64,000 nucleotides of DNA from Dyella sp. S184 (GTDB lineage Bacteria > Pseudomonadota > Gammaproteobacteria > Xanthomonadales > Rhodanobacteraceae). The stretch spans positions 1,099,247 to 1,163,246 of the forward strand of contig NZ_LMUE01000002.1 of NCBI RefSeq assembly GCF_009766065.1. The letters run 5' to 3'. The notes beneath the pieces are model-generated. The model saw nothing but the letters and a program-made list of their open reading frames with translations, was not told the DNA's origin and did not search any database. Below, piece after piece: positions 44,714-50,363 of the stretch. The position numbers and the translations under genes were made by a program. Position 1 is the first letter of the stretch, and every line of letters begins with the position of its first letter.

Positions 44714-45607
44714 TCATGCCAACATCTTCTCCACCGGCAGCACGTACATCTCGCGCGCACCGGCCTTCTTGATCTCTTCCAGCTGTCGCCAGCTCACCTC
44801 GCCGGCGCACAACGCCTGCAGCATCAGCTGATCCGGCTGACCGGCGACCGACAGCAGGGTTGGCTGTGGGCCGCCCGGCAGCAGCCGGGTAACCGCCTCA
44901 AGCGTGGCCCGTGAGGTCTGCAGCAGCAGCAGGCGTGACTCGCGCACCTGGATCACGCCATCCAGCCGCTTCAGCAGCAGCTCCAGCATGTCACCGCGCT
45001 CATCGACCGGCAGCGTCAACGGCCCCGCCAGCACCGCCTCACTTTCCAACAGCACCTCGGCCTCGCGCAGCTGGTTCGCGACCAGGGTGCCGCCGCTCTG
45101 CACCAGGTCGCAGATCGCGTCCGCAGTGCCCAGCTTCGGCGCGATCTCGACCGAGCCTGCCAGCATCACGACGCCGGCATTCACGGCATGCGTGCGCAGC
45201 CATTCACCGAGCAGACCGGGATACGAGGTGGCGATACGCCGGCCTTCCAGCTGCTGCGGCCCGTGGTAATCCAGCTCCTGCGGCACTGCGATCGACAAGC
45301 GGCAGCGCCCGAAACCGAGCGGACGCAATTCGCTGAGCGGCGCCAGCTCGCGGCCAGCGGTGAGCTGGAATTCGCTAAGCACATTGCGCCCGACGATGCC
45401 GAGGTCGCAAACACCTTGCGCGATTAGGCCGGGAATGTCGTCATCGCGCACCAGCAGCAGGTCGACTGGCTCGCCCTCACCGAAACAGAACAGCTTGTCG
45501 CGACTCTGCCGGAAGGTGAGCCCGCAACGGGTAAGCAGTTCCAGCGCCGGCTCGGTGAGCCGGCCGGATTTCTGCATCGCGATACGCAAACGGTCACGCG
45601 TCTTCAT
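44714..45607 (-). CDS. hisG: ATP phosphoribosyltransferase (long form)
   Basis: Committed first step of histidine synthesis, feedback-inhibited by histidine. The 297 aa include the C-terminal ACT-like regulatory domain (about 225-295), so this is the long HisG not needing HisZ. Start at 45607 ([17 protein letters not shown]); the PRPP loop segment [22 protein letters not shown] is clear. Start overlaps the yerC stop by 4 nt. Confidence 0.97.
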
Positions 45608-45942
45608 GCCTTCGCCTTCTTCGCCGCCAGCGATTGCCGCCGCGCTGCACGTGCTGCCGCGGCCAGATAGCCGCCGTTGCCCTGATTGAGATAACGCGCC
45701 ACCCGCCCGATGGTGGTGATGCTGACCGCGGTGCGCTCGTGGATCTCCCGGTAAGCGATGCCTTCCAGCAGATACGGTACTACTCGCCAACGGTCTACCA
45801 GCACCTCGAGTTCTGCAGGGGTGCACAAATCGCCCAGGAAGGCGCCCATCTCATCGGCATTCTTCAGCGACAGCAGAGCCTCACAAAGGCTTAGCCTGGC
45901 TGACTCGACAGGGGTTTCAGGATCAAGCGATCGACGCTTCAT
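45604..45942 (-). CDS. YerC/YecD-type TrpR-like regulator, first gene of the his operon
   Basis: A 112-aa DNA-binding protein of the Trp-repressor superfamily (YerC/YecD group): LGDLCTPAELEVLVDRWRVVPYLLEGIAYREIHERTAVSITTIGRVARYLN contains the helix-turn-helix (Y-R-E-I-x5-VS-x-TTIGRVARYL). A Lys/Ala-rich tail follows. Leading the his genes and overlapping hisG by 4 nt, it is the obvious candidate for a histidine-responsive autoregulated repressor; the effector is inferred. Its ATG sits at the edge of a palindrome and lacks a clear Shine-Dalgarno sequence. Confidence 0.9.
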   Translation of the reverse strand: MKRRSLDPETPVESARLSLCEALLSLKNADEMGAFLGDLCTPAELEVLVDRWRVVPYLLEGIAYREIHERTAVSITTIGRVARYLNQGNGGYLAAAARAARRQSLAAKKAKA

Positions 45943-46396: not shown

Positions 46397-46461
46397 GGGA
46401 ACTCCTTGATTCGTTAGATGAATGATCGAGCATCATAGCAGGTTGGCCCGATGCACCATAG

Positions 46462-47400
46462 TCAGAGATGACCATGCCCCGTACAATCCTGCGGCTGGTC
46501 CAGGCACTCGCCCGGGTCGATCTGCACGGTAACGTGCTGAATACCGAAATTCTCCAGCAGCATCCGCTTGATCGCCCGCAAGGCTTGCGCGCTGTCGGCA
46601 GGTTCTTGCAGCTCGGCATGCAGGGTCGCCATGCGCGAGCCTGAGGCCAGCTGCCATACGTGCAGATGATGGACGTTCCGGATCGATGGGTCGGCGCCAC
46701 GCAGCGACACTTCCACCGCCGCACTGTCCATGCCGTCAGGCACACCTTCCAGCAGGATGTGTGCAGACATCCGCAACAAGCGCCACGCGCTGTTGAGAAT
46801 CAGAAGCCCCACCAGCATCGACAGCACCGGATCGGCCCACAGCCAGCCAAACCAGCGGATTGCCAGCGCAGCGAGGACTGCCGCCACCGAGCCGAGCAGA
46901 TCACCCAGTACATGCAGGCTTGCCCCAGCCAGATTGACGTCGTCATGTGCATGCCCGTGCAGCATGCGCAACACCAGCAGGTTCACCAGCAGGCCGATGA
47001 TCGCCACCACAAACATCACGCCGGACAGGATTTCCCCGGGATGCAGCAACCGGGTGACGGCCTCGTAGATGATCCAGCCGACCAGCACGAACTGGCTCAG
47101 CGCATTGACGAAACCGATCAGCACTTCCATCCGACCATAGCCGTAACTGCGTCGCGCATCGGCTGGCCGGGTCGCCATCCATGCGCCGACAAACGCCAGC
47201 AGCAGCGCTAGTGCATCGACCATCATGTGGCCGGCATCGGCGATCAGCGCCAGCGAGCCGGACCATGCACCACCGATCACCTCGGCCACCATCATCAAGG
47301 TGGTCAGCACAAACGCGAACAGCAGCTTGCGGCTGCGGCCGCCGTTTGCCTCGGCATGTTCATGCACATGCGGTTGATCGTGGGAATGGGTATGCGGCAT
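46462..47400 (-). CDS. Cation diffusion facilitator (CDF) transporter, zinc efflux type
   Basis: Inner-membrane Zn2+/H+ antiporter-type protein of 312 aa (ZitB/CzcD-like). His-rich N-terminus (MPHTHSHDQPHVHEHAE), six helices, site A residues in LIADAGHMMVDALAL (H-x3-D) and HVLGDLLGSV (H-x3-D), a His-containing loop RMLHGHAHDD, and a cytoplasmic domain with NVHHLHVWQL, HAEL and the His-rich end. In-frame starts at 47406 and 47412 (GTG) exist. 66 nt after the MerC-like gene and downstream of the Zur box; metal specificity for zinc is inferred from this. Confidence 0.9.
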   Translation of the reverse strand: MPHTHSHDQPHVHEHAEANGGRSRKLLFAFVLTTLMMVAEVIGGAWSGSLALIADAGHMMVDALALLLAFVGAWMATRPADARRSYGYGRMEVLIGFVNALSQFVLVGWIIYEAVTRLLHPGEILSGVMFVVAIIGLLVNLLVLRMLHGHAHDDVNLAGASLHVLGDLLGSVAAVLAALAIRWFGWLWADPVLSMLVGLLILNSAWRLLRMSAHILLEGVPDGMDSAAVEVSLRGADPSIRNVHHLHVWQLASGSRMATLHAELQEPADSAQALRAIKRMLLENFGIQHVTVQIDPGECLDQPQDCTGHGHL

Positions 47401-47466
47401 GTTCATCCACACATGCTAGGAACGGCGGCAGCCGTTACACAATCACGATGCGCCTGCATACGCAGC

Positions 47467-47901
47467 TCAGTGCACGCATTGTGGGCCATGCACATGGGCA
47501 TGGCCGTGGCGCCGATCGTTGCGCAGATTGATGAAATGCGCCGAAGCCACCAGCAGGCCACCGCACGTCACCAGCACGCTGTGCAGGATGATCGAATAGT
47601 GCTCGGCATAGGTAACGCCCAGCAGCAGCAGGGCGAGCCCCGGCACGGCCAGCAGCAGCGGCAGCGAAACCTGATGACGGCGGTAGCCACGGATCATGGC
47701 AAACAGGGCCAACGTGCAGGCGAACATTACAAAGCCGCGCTCGAAACGATGATCGGCCAGAAATTCCAGGCCTACGAAGGGCAACAACGCCAGCACGAAC
47801 GGCAGCAGCGCACAGTGGATCGCGCACAGAAACGAGGCCGTCGCACCAACGCGATCGGCCACACGCCACCAGCGGGATTTGCTCGCCTGTTCGGAGTCCA
47901 T
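47467..47901 (-). CDS. MerC-domain small membrane protein, putative zinc-related
   Basis: A 144-aa membrane protein with four hydrophobic segments and the MerC-like motif ATASFLCAIHCALLPFVL (C-x3-C near the first helix), ending in a His-rich tail HGHAHVHGPQCVH. Start 47901 (MDSEQASKSRWW) has AGG at a suitable distance; 47916 and a GTG at 47949 are alternatives. Mercury-transport MerC is the named relative, but no mer genes are present. The Zur box upstream points to zinc. Confidence 0.8.
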   Translation of the reverse strand: MDSEQASKSRWWRVADRVGATASFLCAIHCALLPFVLALLPFVGLEFLADHRFERGFVMFACTLALFAMIRGYRRHQVSLPLLLAVPGLALLLLGVTYAEHYSIILHSVLVTCGGLLVASAHFINLRNDRRHGHAHVHGPQCVH

Positions 47902-47950
47902 CGACCTATTCTGCATCGCCAAACGTGGCAATTCGTTAACACCAGTCACC

Positions 47951-47973
47951 GAAATGTTATTTTATAACACTTT
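47951..47973 (-). promoter_or_regulatory. zur box: Zur operator
   Basis: The core TGTTATTTTATAACA (47955-47969) is a perfect 6-3-6 palindrome, flanked left by GAAA and right by CTTT. It agrees with the gammaproteobacterial Zur consensus GAAATGTTATA-(n)-TATAACATTTC at nearly all positions. It overlaps a TATAAA -10-like sequence upstream of the MerC-like gene, so zinc-loaded Zur should repress the MerC-CDF transcript. Confidence 0.85.
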
Positions 47974-48105
47974 GAAATGCTAGCCCGGGTCACCCGGAAC
48001 TCGTACAAGCCATCCTTACTGGGTAACAGCGGTATCCGGGCATCGATCTTGTCAAACGTTCAAACACCGCCAAACAGCAGCTGCCGTAGACGCCGGCAAA
48101 CGGAT

Positions 48106-48615
48106 TCAGGCTTTGCGGCAGTTCTTGCAGGTGCCGTGCACTTCCAGCGTCTGCGCCTGCGGCCGGAAGCCGAGCGCCCTGGCCTGTGCCTCGATCAGAT
48201 CGGCGACCCGCTCATCGCAGACTTCCTGCGCACTGGAGCAGGTGTCGCAGATCAGGAACGGCACCTGATGCGCTTCGGCTGGGTGGTGGCAGGACACGAA
48301 GGCATTGATCGACTCCAGCTTGTGGATGAAGCCGTTTTCCAGCAGAAAATCGAGCGCCCGGTACACCGTGGGCGGCGCTGCGTTGCCATGCTTCTCACGC
48401 AACAGGTCGAGCAGGTCGTACGCCTTGATCGGCTTATGTGCAGCGGCAATCAGCTCCAGCACTTCCTTGCGCAGCGGGGTAAGGCGCAAGCCGCGCTCCT
48501 CGCTGGCATGTTCCACCGCACGCACGAAACCCTTCGCATCATGATGATGCGGGTGATGTGGGCGCGTGTCGTGGGCAGCGTCGTGGCTCAAGGGGTTCAC
48601 CTCTGGATGGATCAT
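48106..48615 (-). CDS. zur: Zinc uptake regulator Zur (Fur family)
   Basis: A 169-aa Fur-family repressor. Winged helix (LTPLRKEVLELIAAAHKPIKAYDLLDLLREKHGNAAPPTVYRALDFLLENGFIHKL) and dimerisation domain with structural-zinc cysteines CDTC and CKNC and the regulatory CHHPAEAHQVPF. His-rich N-terminus (HHPHHHDAK). The presence of a Zur box 130 nt downstream and a CDF gene supports Zur over Fur or PerR. Start 48615 (MIHPEVN) chosen; a TTG at 48636 is possible. Confidence 0.88.
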   Translation of the reverse strand: MIHPEVNPLSHDAAHDTRPHHPHHHDAKGFVRAVEHASEERGLRLTPLRKEVLELIAAAHKPIKAYDLLDLLREKHGNAAPPTVYRALDFLLENGFIHKLESINAFVSCHHPAEAHQVPFLICDTCSSAQEVCDERVADLIEAQARALGFRPQAQTLEVHGTCKNCRKA

Positions 48616-48648
48616 ACACTGGCGCCTGCAGCGCAACCCTGGAGGAAC

Positions 48649-48927
48649 TCACCGCCTCAGCGGTGGCGGCCTGACAGGTGGCTTCGGCGGCGGCTTGACG
48701 AGTATCACGACCCAGCCGATTGGCCCCAGCACAAGCGCCCAGACGATGCCTTCTCCCAATCGGCCACGCCACCAGCCGAGCAGCGCACCGACGGCGACAA
48801 ACAGCACGTTCCACCAGAACATGGCGGCCCACGGCATCAAATTCAACAGGTTGACGAAGACGTGCCAGAACGCGCCCGGCGCGTCGGGATCGACGCCTTG
48901 GCTGGCCTTGGCGAGTAGTTCGTCCAT
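48649..48927 (-). CDS. Small membrane protein of unknown function
   Basis: A 92-aa protein with two hydrophobic helices (about 20-48 and 60-78), an Arg turn GWWRGRLGE and a Pro/Arg-rich cytoplasmic tail KPPPKPPVRPPPLRR. Lies between gltX and zur, 33 nt before zur. I do not recognise a family. Confidence 0.65.
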   Translation of the reverse strand: MDELLAKASQGVDPDAPGAFWHVFVNLLNLMPWAAMFWWNVLFVAVGALLGWWRGRLGEGIVWALVLGPIGWVVILVKPPPKPPVRPPPLRR

Positions 48928-48962: not shown

Positions 48963-50363
48963 TCAATCCTGCGCCAGCGCGATCGCATCGTCGATGCGCT
49001 TTAGCGCCCCGCTGCGACCTGTCAGGTAGATCGTATGCTCGATCGACGGCGACACCTGCGTGCCGGTCATGGCCACCCGCAGCGGCTGCGCGATCTTGCC
49101 CATGCCCAGCTCCAGTTTCGCGGCGACCTGCTCGATCACCTGATGGATCGGCTCGGGCTTCCATTCGCAATCAACCAGCAGTGATTTCGCCGCGTTGAGC
49201 ACGGCCACCGCGCTGTCGTTCTTCAAATGCTTGGCGACCGCCTTGTCGTCCCATTCGGCAATCGGCGCGTACCAGATCATCGCGCGCTCGACCATTTCCT
49301 TGAACGTGTGCACGCGATCGCGCAGCGCCACGATCACGTCGACCGGCGCCGGGCCGTGCGATGTATCGACACCGGCGCGGGCCAGGTGCCACTCGAATTC
49401 CGGTGCCAGCGTCTGCGGATCGTCGGTCTTCAGGTAATGCTGGTTGAGCCATGCCAGCTTTTCGGTATCGAAACGCGAGGCGGCCTTGTTGACGTCGGAA
49501 ATATCGAACAGCGCGATCATCTCGTCGCGCGAGAAAATTTCTTGGTCACCATGCGACCAACCCAGCCGCACCAGGTAGTTCAGCAGTGCGTGCGGCAGGA
49601 AGCCATCGTCGCGGTATTCCATCACGCTGACCGCGCTGGTGCGCTTGGACAGCTTCTTGCCTTCCTTGTCGAGGATCATCGGCAGGTGCGCGAACTCCGG
49701 CACCTTGGCACCGAGCGCGTGGTAGATGTTGATCTGGCGCGGCGTGTTGTTGACGTGGTCATCGCCGCGGATCACCTCGGTGATACCCATGTCGATATCG
49801 TCGACCACCACCGCGAAGTTGTAGGTCGGCCAGCCGTCGGAGCGGAAGATCACCAGGTCGTCCAGCTCGGTGTTGGCCCATTCGATCCGGCCTTTCACCT
49901 TGTCATCGAACACCACCGAACCTTCGCTCGGATTGCGGAAACGGATCACGCGATTGGGATCTTCATGGAAAGGCTCGTTGCGATCACGGTAGTAGCCGTT
50001 GTAACGCGGTTTCTCGCCCTTCGCCATCGCCGCCTCGCGCATGGCCTCGATCTCGTCCTTGCTTTCGTAGGCGTAGTACGCCTTGCCGGCGGCAACCAGT
50101 TCATCGGCCACCTGCTTGTACCGCTCCAGCCGCTGGGTCTGGTAGAACGGGCCTTCATCGTGATTCAGTCCTAACCACTGCATAGCATCGAGAATCGCCT
50201 GCACGGCAGCATCCGTCGAACGCTCACGGTCTGTATCCTCGATGCGCAGCACGAACTCGCCGCCGCGTCGACGCGACTCCAGCCAACAGTACAACGCAGT
50301 ACGCGCACCGCCGATATGCAGAAAACCGGTGGGGCTGGGGGCAAAACGGGTACGAACAGTCAT
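48963..50363 (-). CDS. gltX: Glutamyl-tRNA synthetase
   Basis: Class Ib aminoacyl-tRNA synthetase of 466 aa charging tRNA-Glu. HIGH motif in [17 protein letters not shown], the QTQRLERY segment, HLPMIL, and KLSKRTSA as KMSKS-like motif. No zinc-binding Cys cluster is evident. Length and motifs fit the non-discriminating-to-discriminating proteobacterial type; charging specificity cannot be told. Divergent from the beta-barrel-like gene. Confidence 0.97.

Follow-up and report, generated by a model that had tools for sequence, protein, structure and literature searches.

The DNA analyzed here is a 64,000-nucleotide stretch of the Dyella sp. S184 genome, which we refer to as the window. On its minus strand, five genes follow one another in the order gltX, a gene for a small membrane protein, zur, a merC-like gene, and a CDF gene. 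The first of these, gltX (48963..50363), was named by eye from its sequence and is a conserved neighbor that anchors the synteny of the region. The small membrane protein gene (48649..48927), located between gltX and zur, is also conserved, and its product has no match in Pfam or NCBIfam. The zur gene (48106..48615; the start codon at 48615 is likely but not certain) encodes a Fur-family protein (Pfam PF01475, E 4.2e-13) whose best solved relatives are 7dh7 (1.5e-59), which we take to be Zur of Xanthomonas campestris, and 4mtd, a zinc uptake regulation protein (1.5e-35). Its best NCBIfam match is PRK11639 (Zur), at 146.8 bits, under the cut-off of 167 for that model. The Fur domain and the closest relatives identify the product as Zur, with zinc-dependent DNA binding as its predicted activity. 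Between zur and merC there is a weak terminator-like hairpin (48081..48099, minus strand) that is not above chance, with 1 found and 1.5 expected.

The merC-like gene (47467..47901) encodes a predicted four-helix membrane protein with a CxxHC motif and a His-rich tail. The protein matches Pfam PF03203 over the full domain (E 4.8e-26; 91.9 bits versus a gathering cut-off of 27.6) and therefore belongs to the MerC family. By contrast, it scores far under the cut-offs of the organomercurial MerC equivalog models (18.6 bits versus 170, and 17.4 versus 140). Further downstream lies the gene for a ZitB/ZnT-like CDF zinc exporter (46462..47406), which has His-rich ends. Its product carries the CDF domain (Pfam PF01545, 1.5e-45) together with ZT_dimer, and the HxxxD motifs of the zinc site in TM2 and TM5 are present in the sequence as HMMVD and HVLGD, as in the alignment with ZnT8. 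These domains and the HxxxD/HxxxD zinc site place the protein in the ZitB/ZnT branch. Its best NCBIfam match is Escherichia coli ZitB, which has the same pair of motifs, but the score of 287 bits is under the equivalog cut-off of 408.

The adjacency of merC and the CDF gene is retained in 59 of 65 loci from the same family, with a median gap of 49 nt (measured by the upstream-most ATG). Rfam gave no match to a known RNA family up to E 1 within 46400–48700, which speaks against a known riboswitch ahead of the CDF gene. Elsewhere in the window (45604–45942, minus strand), a small open frame that we take to be TrpR/YerC-like lies just upstream of genes that are presumably hisG- and hisD-like; it is a possible histidine operon regulator. 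Throughout, L and G numbers denote loci and genomes, and family (f2, f5, f8, f10) and genus labels are those of the search sample.

The Zur box and the predicted promoter of merC

Located between zur and merC, 49 nt from the merC ATG (47901), is the Zur box GAAATGTTATTTTATAACACTTT (47951..47973), the predicted operator of merC. Several lines of evidence show that the box is real. First, a palindromic motif, G.aATGTTAtAaTaTAACATt.C, was found de novo in the 210 bases that precede merC in 65 family loci. The motif has 28.2 bits of information, versus 6.6–7.0 bits for three shuffled controls and 20.0 bits for a control stretch of the merC coding region. Because this conserved coding control scored so high, raw information alone is no proof, and the footprint is better evidence: with 18 genera weighted equally, information rises from ~0 to ~2 bits per base across the box and then drops at once. 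Second, the 65-locus motif gives the box 32.2 bits, while the next best place in the 64-kb window reaches 6.2 bits and the random maximum in 5 Mb of simulated sequence is 14.1 bits. Each of the 65 merC loci of the family has a site that reaches 19.8 bits or more, and in 52 of them it lies 104–127 bases ahead of the MerC domain. These scores use the motif learned from these same loci, except that our own locus was also left out once; the motif from the 64 other loci gives the box 31.9 bits. Third, an exact search of the 4.23-Mb genome for GAAATGTTATNNNATAACA found the box itself (47951–47973) and nothing else. With up to 3 mismatches, GAAATGTTATNNNATAACA is also found at a place before a TonB-dependent receptor gene (2 mismatches) and at four places with 3 mismatches each; the backwards-read control of this search in the same genome had no match at up to 3 mismatches. 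A 17-mer, again with up to 3 mismatches across the whole genome, matched two places, i.e., the merC box and the TonB-receptor site, and its control matched none.

The motif extends beyond the family. Among merC loci outside it, 33 of 44 score above 14.1 bits (26 of 28 in f2, 7 of 12 in f10, and 0 of 4 in f5 and f8), and in one f8 locus a zur-merC pair is preceded by a consensus-like site that agrees at 17 of 22 positions. Sites from outside the sample served as a check: four distinct Zur-repressed sites of Caulobacter, found in the available part of PMC4176598, score 10.0–27.7 bits, and the lowest of them, at 10.0 bits, is under the random maximum. The counts derive from 110 merC loci, of which the short L011 was left out of the motif scan, leaving 65 in the family and 44 outside. 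The 65 loci come from 65 of the family's 75 genomes with MerC, and the other 10 genomes stand outside the count; four of these (G012, G150, G227, and G275) were examined around the CDF element only (see below), and in two of them, G012 and G150, the stretch examined includes merC and a Zur box. Genomes G101 and G268 have two MerC genes each. Three f2 loci (L097, L103, and L105) hold MerC-family genes that are distantly related to the MerC described here and have strong Zur boxes (27.0, 28.4, and 31.6 bits). The sequence at our locus is thus a Zur box by its palindrome around TGTTATA..TATAACA, its conservation, and its score above chance. A preliminary description of this DNA had placed a near-full match to the Zur consensus next to zur (47901–48615), upstream of MerC-like and CDF genes whose products both have His-rich ends, and each of these points agrees with the motif scores, the domain matches, and the protein sequences.

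The box here holds TGTTATAAA, a predicted extended −10 of merC (TG-T-TATAAA, with the −10 at 47961..47966 on the minus strand), and GTTATAA lies within the box in 54 of 65 loci of the family. The merC transcript is predicted to start at ~47954, although a sigma-70 consensus scan listed no merC promoter on the minus strand. In Caulobacter, the operators through which Zur represses znuK, znuL, and znuGHI overlap the −10, according to the available text of PMC4176598. Since the box here covers the −10 as those operators do, repression of merC by zinc-loaded Zur would be the natural reading. The box stays with merC when there is no CDF gene in the 1.5 kb downstream, as seen in 26 of 28 f2 loci and in the family's own L027, L053, L054, and L069, which supports the view that it serves merC. 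Two earlier proposals can be judged accordingly. That the box controls both genes is supported for merC, but for the CDF gene it is not supported as the main mode of control; that MerC is the true target is also supported, with zinc import by MerC as a candidate function (discussed below).

A second conserved element, ahead of the CDF gene

Alignments of the gap between merC and the CDF gene point to a second conserved element, one that the preliminary description had missed. At our locus the element is GTGATTGTGTAAC (47434..47446, minus strand), which lies over a predicted −35 (TTGTGT) and resembles a degenerate Zur site. The predicted −10 (TAGCAT; 47413..47418, minus strand) has its first base 12 nt before the CDF ATG (47406), such that the predicted mRNA is leaderless. 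The full element is therefore GTGATTGTGTAAC-N15-TAGCAT (47413–47446). Its core, TTGTGTA(A/G)C, is found in the gap in all 61 loci of the family that have a CDF gene close by, and in none of the 4 that lack such a neighbor. Of the 61, 55 have GTGATTGTGTAAC exactly, 57 have TAG located 18 nt from TTGTGT, and 42 have the full TAGCAT.

The CDF element is independent of merC. In L061 and L064, where another gene separates merC from the CDF gene, the element goes with the CDF gene. It also lies between zur and the CDF gene in G236, which has no merC, and in G227, which has no merC between those two genes. Two genomes (loci L162 and L166) keep the CDF gene beside zur with no merC between them. A search of 299 genomes for GATTGTGTAAC-N12..17-TAG found the pattern in 71, i.e., 62 of 76 from the family and 9 others, once per genome except for G046 (two), while the backwards-read control gave 7 matches in 6 genomes. 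The pattern is unique in the genome studied here. In G275 (L163, ~1490–1680), the CDF gene and its element are divergent from a TonB receptor gene with two tandem Zur-like sites (15.2 and 13.5 bits), and the receptor is 68% identical over 460 residues to the Zur-boxed one of this genome; this intergenic region would hold another import/export pair.

The position of the element suggests a promoter. The first base of the −10 lies 12 or 13 nt before the CDF start codon in 51 of 58 loci (for our own locus this count used a GTG located 6 nt away, whereas the ATG at 47406 is 12 nt away), such that transcription would begin at the start codon itself. CDF starts show less Shine-Dalgarno pairing than random sites do (median energy +0.6 versus −2.9), while merC starts are like random ones. 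It thus appears that the CDF gene is transcribed from a promoter of its own into a leaderless mRNA. TTGTGT/TAGCAT fits the sigma-70 consensus at 7 of 12 positions, and since the consensus scan lists no promoter ahead of the CDF gene on the minus strand, conservation and spacing are the basis for assigning it a promoter role. Such a weak match would be in keeping with a promoter dependent on an activator. The gap between the two genes showed no terminator-like site, so in low zinc transcription from merC may run on into the exporter gene; translation from such read-through would presumably be limited by the poor ribosome-binding context of the CDF start. Of the suggestion that the CDF gene has its own zinc-induced control, the separate control is supported by the 61 loci with the core and the 4 without; induction by zinc would be probable.

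Does Zur act on this element? With the 65-locus Zur motif, the CDF element scores 1.6 bits here and a median of −5.7 bits across loci. The motif fits CDF elements best in the exactly centred register, and none of 2,000 column-permuted Zur motifs reached the observed fit; when only the core columns were permuted, 2 of 4,000 did. The same element precedes a small gene in five f2 loci (L157–L161). The small gene of L160, the only one tested, has a weak, sub-threshold match to DUF2946. The next gene is an OEP gene (outer-membrane efflux, CzcC-like) in L159 and L160, as tested with Pfam, with L157 and L161 alike and L158 read less far. We rejected "best Zur-like position in the locus" as additional evidence for L157–L161, because a core copy in L167 that is likely due to chance does the same.

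These f2 loci are reminiscent of Caulobacter crescentus, in which canonical Zur sites lie over uptake promoters and the DUF2946-czrCBA-zntA operon is activated by Zur with zinc through a degenerate GTAA-N5-TAAC site, GCCGTAATTAAGTAACAGA (PMC4176598, as far as the available text goes). Changing GTAA to ACCG abolished induction, and no Zur binding to the site was seen in vitro (same partial source). The Caulobacter czr core as printed there agrees with the CDF element at 10 of 13 positions, and the core of the mutagenesis primer at 8 of 13. The czr promoter sequence had no match within 3 mismatches in the Caulobacter strain that was searched. Caulobacter differs in that its repressed uptake genes and its activated operon have distant gene numbers, and no CDF gene is among the Zur targets tabulated in the available part of PMC4176598. 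ZrpW, a small membrane protein that Zur represses in Caulobacter, has six TM segments according to the same text; we considered ZrpW as a MerC protein and rejected it, as it has no Pfam match at all.

Two further systems combine repressed uptake with activated export. X. campestris Zur represses uptake genes and activates the CDF gene XC2976 via a GC-rich site that extends over −35 to −10 (PMC9827704 and PMC6103462, citing Huang 2008, in the parts available). The dual logic is the same as that considered here, and 7dh7 is the nearest solved relative of our Zur. However, the uptake genes listed in those parts are znuABC and TonB receptors, with MerC unnamed, whereas at our locus the importer candidate adjoins the exporter, and the CDF element is short and resembles a degenerate Zur site. 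In Streptomyces coelicolor, Zur represses uptake and activates a ZitB-type CDF gene with zinc (PMC5472717, in part); unlike the element here, its Zur box is upstream of the −35 (PMC9827704 and PMC6103462, in part) and multimers load at high zinc.

Because the CDF element is Zur-like and resembles the Caulobacter site for Zur-activated export, activation of the CDF gene by Zur is a plausible, though unproven, mode of control, and the evidence favors reading the element as a weak Zur site without proving it. The earlier suggestion that this Zur might activate export is therefore plausible for the CDF gene, at a low absolute score. Most f2 CDF genes among those listed (L130–L152) are preceded by another conserved element, GTGTAATAGTCTCC or a near variant, so the link between element and exporter is not uniform. 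One could instead suppose that the CDF promoter is the gene's own but that the regulator at GTGATTGTGTAAC is not Zur; it would be another metal-responsive activator, or there would be none and the promoter would simply be unusually conserved, with Zur repressing merC only. The very low score of the element relative to true Zur boxes is in keeping with this, as are the GTGTAATAGTCTCC-type element of the f2 genes and the overlap with the predicted −35, from which part of the conservation would be expected for any promoter. Against it stand the specificity of the fit for the Zur column order in the permutation controls, the position of the CDF gene beside zur in L162 and L166, and the record of Zur-activated exporters in the available texts on Xanthomonas, Caulobacter, and Streptomyces. 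We regard a regulator other than Zur as rather unlikely; Zur is the more plausible activator.

MerC as a candidate zinc importer

The gene at 47467..47901 encodes the sole MerC found in this genome, in which neither ZnuA nor ZIP gave a match. Across a sample of 299 genomes drawn evenly from a larger group of the order, 253 have MerC. Presence of ZnuA or ZIP was taken as E ≤ 0.001, and 93 of the 108 genomes with ZIP also pass the curated cut-off. At that threshold, 61 of the 75 genomes of the family with MerC have neither ZnuA nor ZIP, and the family's single genome without MerC, G236, has ZIP. For the order sample, neither is found in 144 of 253 genomes with MerC, while one or both are found in 34 of 46 without (p 1.7e-4, uncorrected for kinship). 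The remaining 12 of the 46 genomes without MerC have neither ZnuA nor ZIP, which means that other importers exist.

Several residues of the protein are highly conserved. Among 109 MerC proteins, Asp16, Cys26, Cys30, His122, and Asn125 never vary; within the family the same is true of His29, which is 84% conserved elsewhere, and His76 is 100% conserved in the family and 93% elsewhere. A tail that ends near HVH..C.H is typical of the family. The structural model has four helices (pLDDT 80.6, pTM 0.67), with the CxxHC motif in helix 1, and no solved relative was found by sequence or fold at E ≤ 0.001. The relationship to mercury resistance is one of family: MerC of mer operons, a system of membrane metal transport, contributes to the transport of mercuric ion into the cytoplasm (review PMC12193353, in part), and shares PF03203 over the full domain. 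The MerC described here differs in being Zur-boxed, beside zur rather than in a mer operon, and far under the equivalog cut-off (the 18.6 bits given above).

A second Zur-like palindrome in the genome, around GTAATGTTATAACATTAC, is on another contig, outside the window (G000:C11:116015-116034; L009 7016–7035). It scores 18.7 bits and lies directly before a gene for a TonB-dependent receptor (tested with Pfam), which is likely the outer-membrane step of zinc uptake. Because merC has a Zur box, because a TonB receptor is also Zur-boxed, and because ZnuA and ZIP were not found, the putatively Zur-repressed MerC is the best candidate for the inner-membrane zinc importer, a role proposed from regulation and from the absence of ZnuA and ZIP.

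Alternatively, MerC could be Zur-repressed without being a zinc importer, e.g., as a membrane protein for metal relay or sensing, and zinc would enter via another transporter family. The near-complete genomes G007, G018, and G166 (f8) have no match to MerC, ZnuA, or ZIP, so another importer exists in the order, and the importer families searched were ZnuA and ZIP. This alternative is nonetheless unlikely given that merC is nearly universal in the family while ZnuA and ZIP are mostly absent, that Cys26, His29, Cys30, His76, and His122 are invariant or nearly so, and that MerC of mer operons helps to bring mercuric ion into the cytoplasm (PMC12193353, in part).

A search of the open-license literature, which was not exhaustive, found no paper that joins MerC and Zur. 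The available part of PMC12193353 has both but treats them apart, and the word MerC is absent from PMC2770081. In a Xanthomonas oryzae response-regulator mutant, a gene with a MerC domain is among the changed genes, along with a DUF2946 gene and a TonB receptor gene (table of PMC7698356, in part).

A proposed switch between zinc import and export

Had merC and the CDF gene formed one Zur-repressed operon, the exporter might act in low zinc as a safety valve for zinc that overshoots, or for cadmium or cobalt entering through MerC; this reading lost its place as the main one once the gap alignments showed the CDF element, and we consider it very unlikely, since the short gap, the widespread adjacency, the lack of a terminator-like site, and the silence of the consensus scan ahead of the CDF gene are set against a separate promoter-like element that moves with the CDF gene, a start with less Shine-Dalgarno pairing than random and hence poor expected translation from a long transcript, and f2 merC genes that are boxed with no CDF gene in the 1.5 kb downstream.

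We propose instead, with moderate confidence, that the locus is a zinc import/export switch that pairs a Zur-repressed merC importer with a CDF exporter under its own, probably Zur-activated promoter. When zinc is sufficient, zinc-loaded Zur would sit on the box over the merC −10 and turn merC off; when zinc is short, Zur would leave the box and MerC would be made. MerC would then carry zinc over the inner membrane by way of the CxxHC motif in helix 1, His76, His122, and the His/Cys-rich tail, presumably fed by the TonB receptor under the other Zur box of the genome. The CDF exporter would be read from its own promoter via GTGATTGTGTAAC-N15-TAGCAT, probably as a leaderless mRNA, and would probably be raised by high zinc, most likely by Zur on the degenerate site. 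The two neighbors could thus be switched in opposite directions. The preliminary description had found a zinc exporter repressed by zinc-loaded Zur counter-intuitive, and this paradox largely dissolves given the second conserved element, which belongs to the CDF gene.

What is new here is the proposal that MerC imports zinc under Zur control, together with the presence of two neighboring Zur-type sites of different strength. More tentatively, the chromosomal MerC branch may be the standard Zur-controlled zinc importer of the inner membrane in much of the order, replacing ZnuABC and ZIP, and in one family it may stand beside a CDF exporter that is activated by the same Zur via a weak site; a single sensor would then govern both import and export from adjacent promoters. 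For zinc import in bacteria without ZnuABC and ZIP, a Zur-boxed gene of the MerC family, nearly universal in the bacterial family studied here, is hereby named as the candidate. The neighboring CDF promoter offers a compact test of whether one regulator can repress by a strong site and activate by a weak one. If MerC is indeed the importer, a family known from mercury resistance would gain a housekeeping role in zinc supply, and the uptake of mercury by MerC relatives would be easy to explain.
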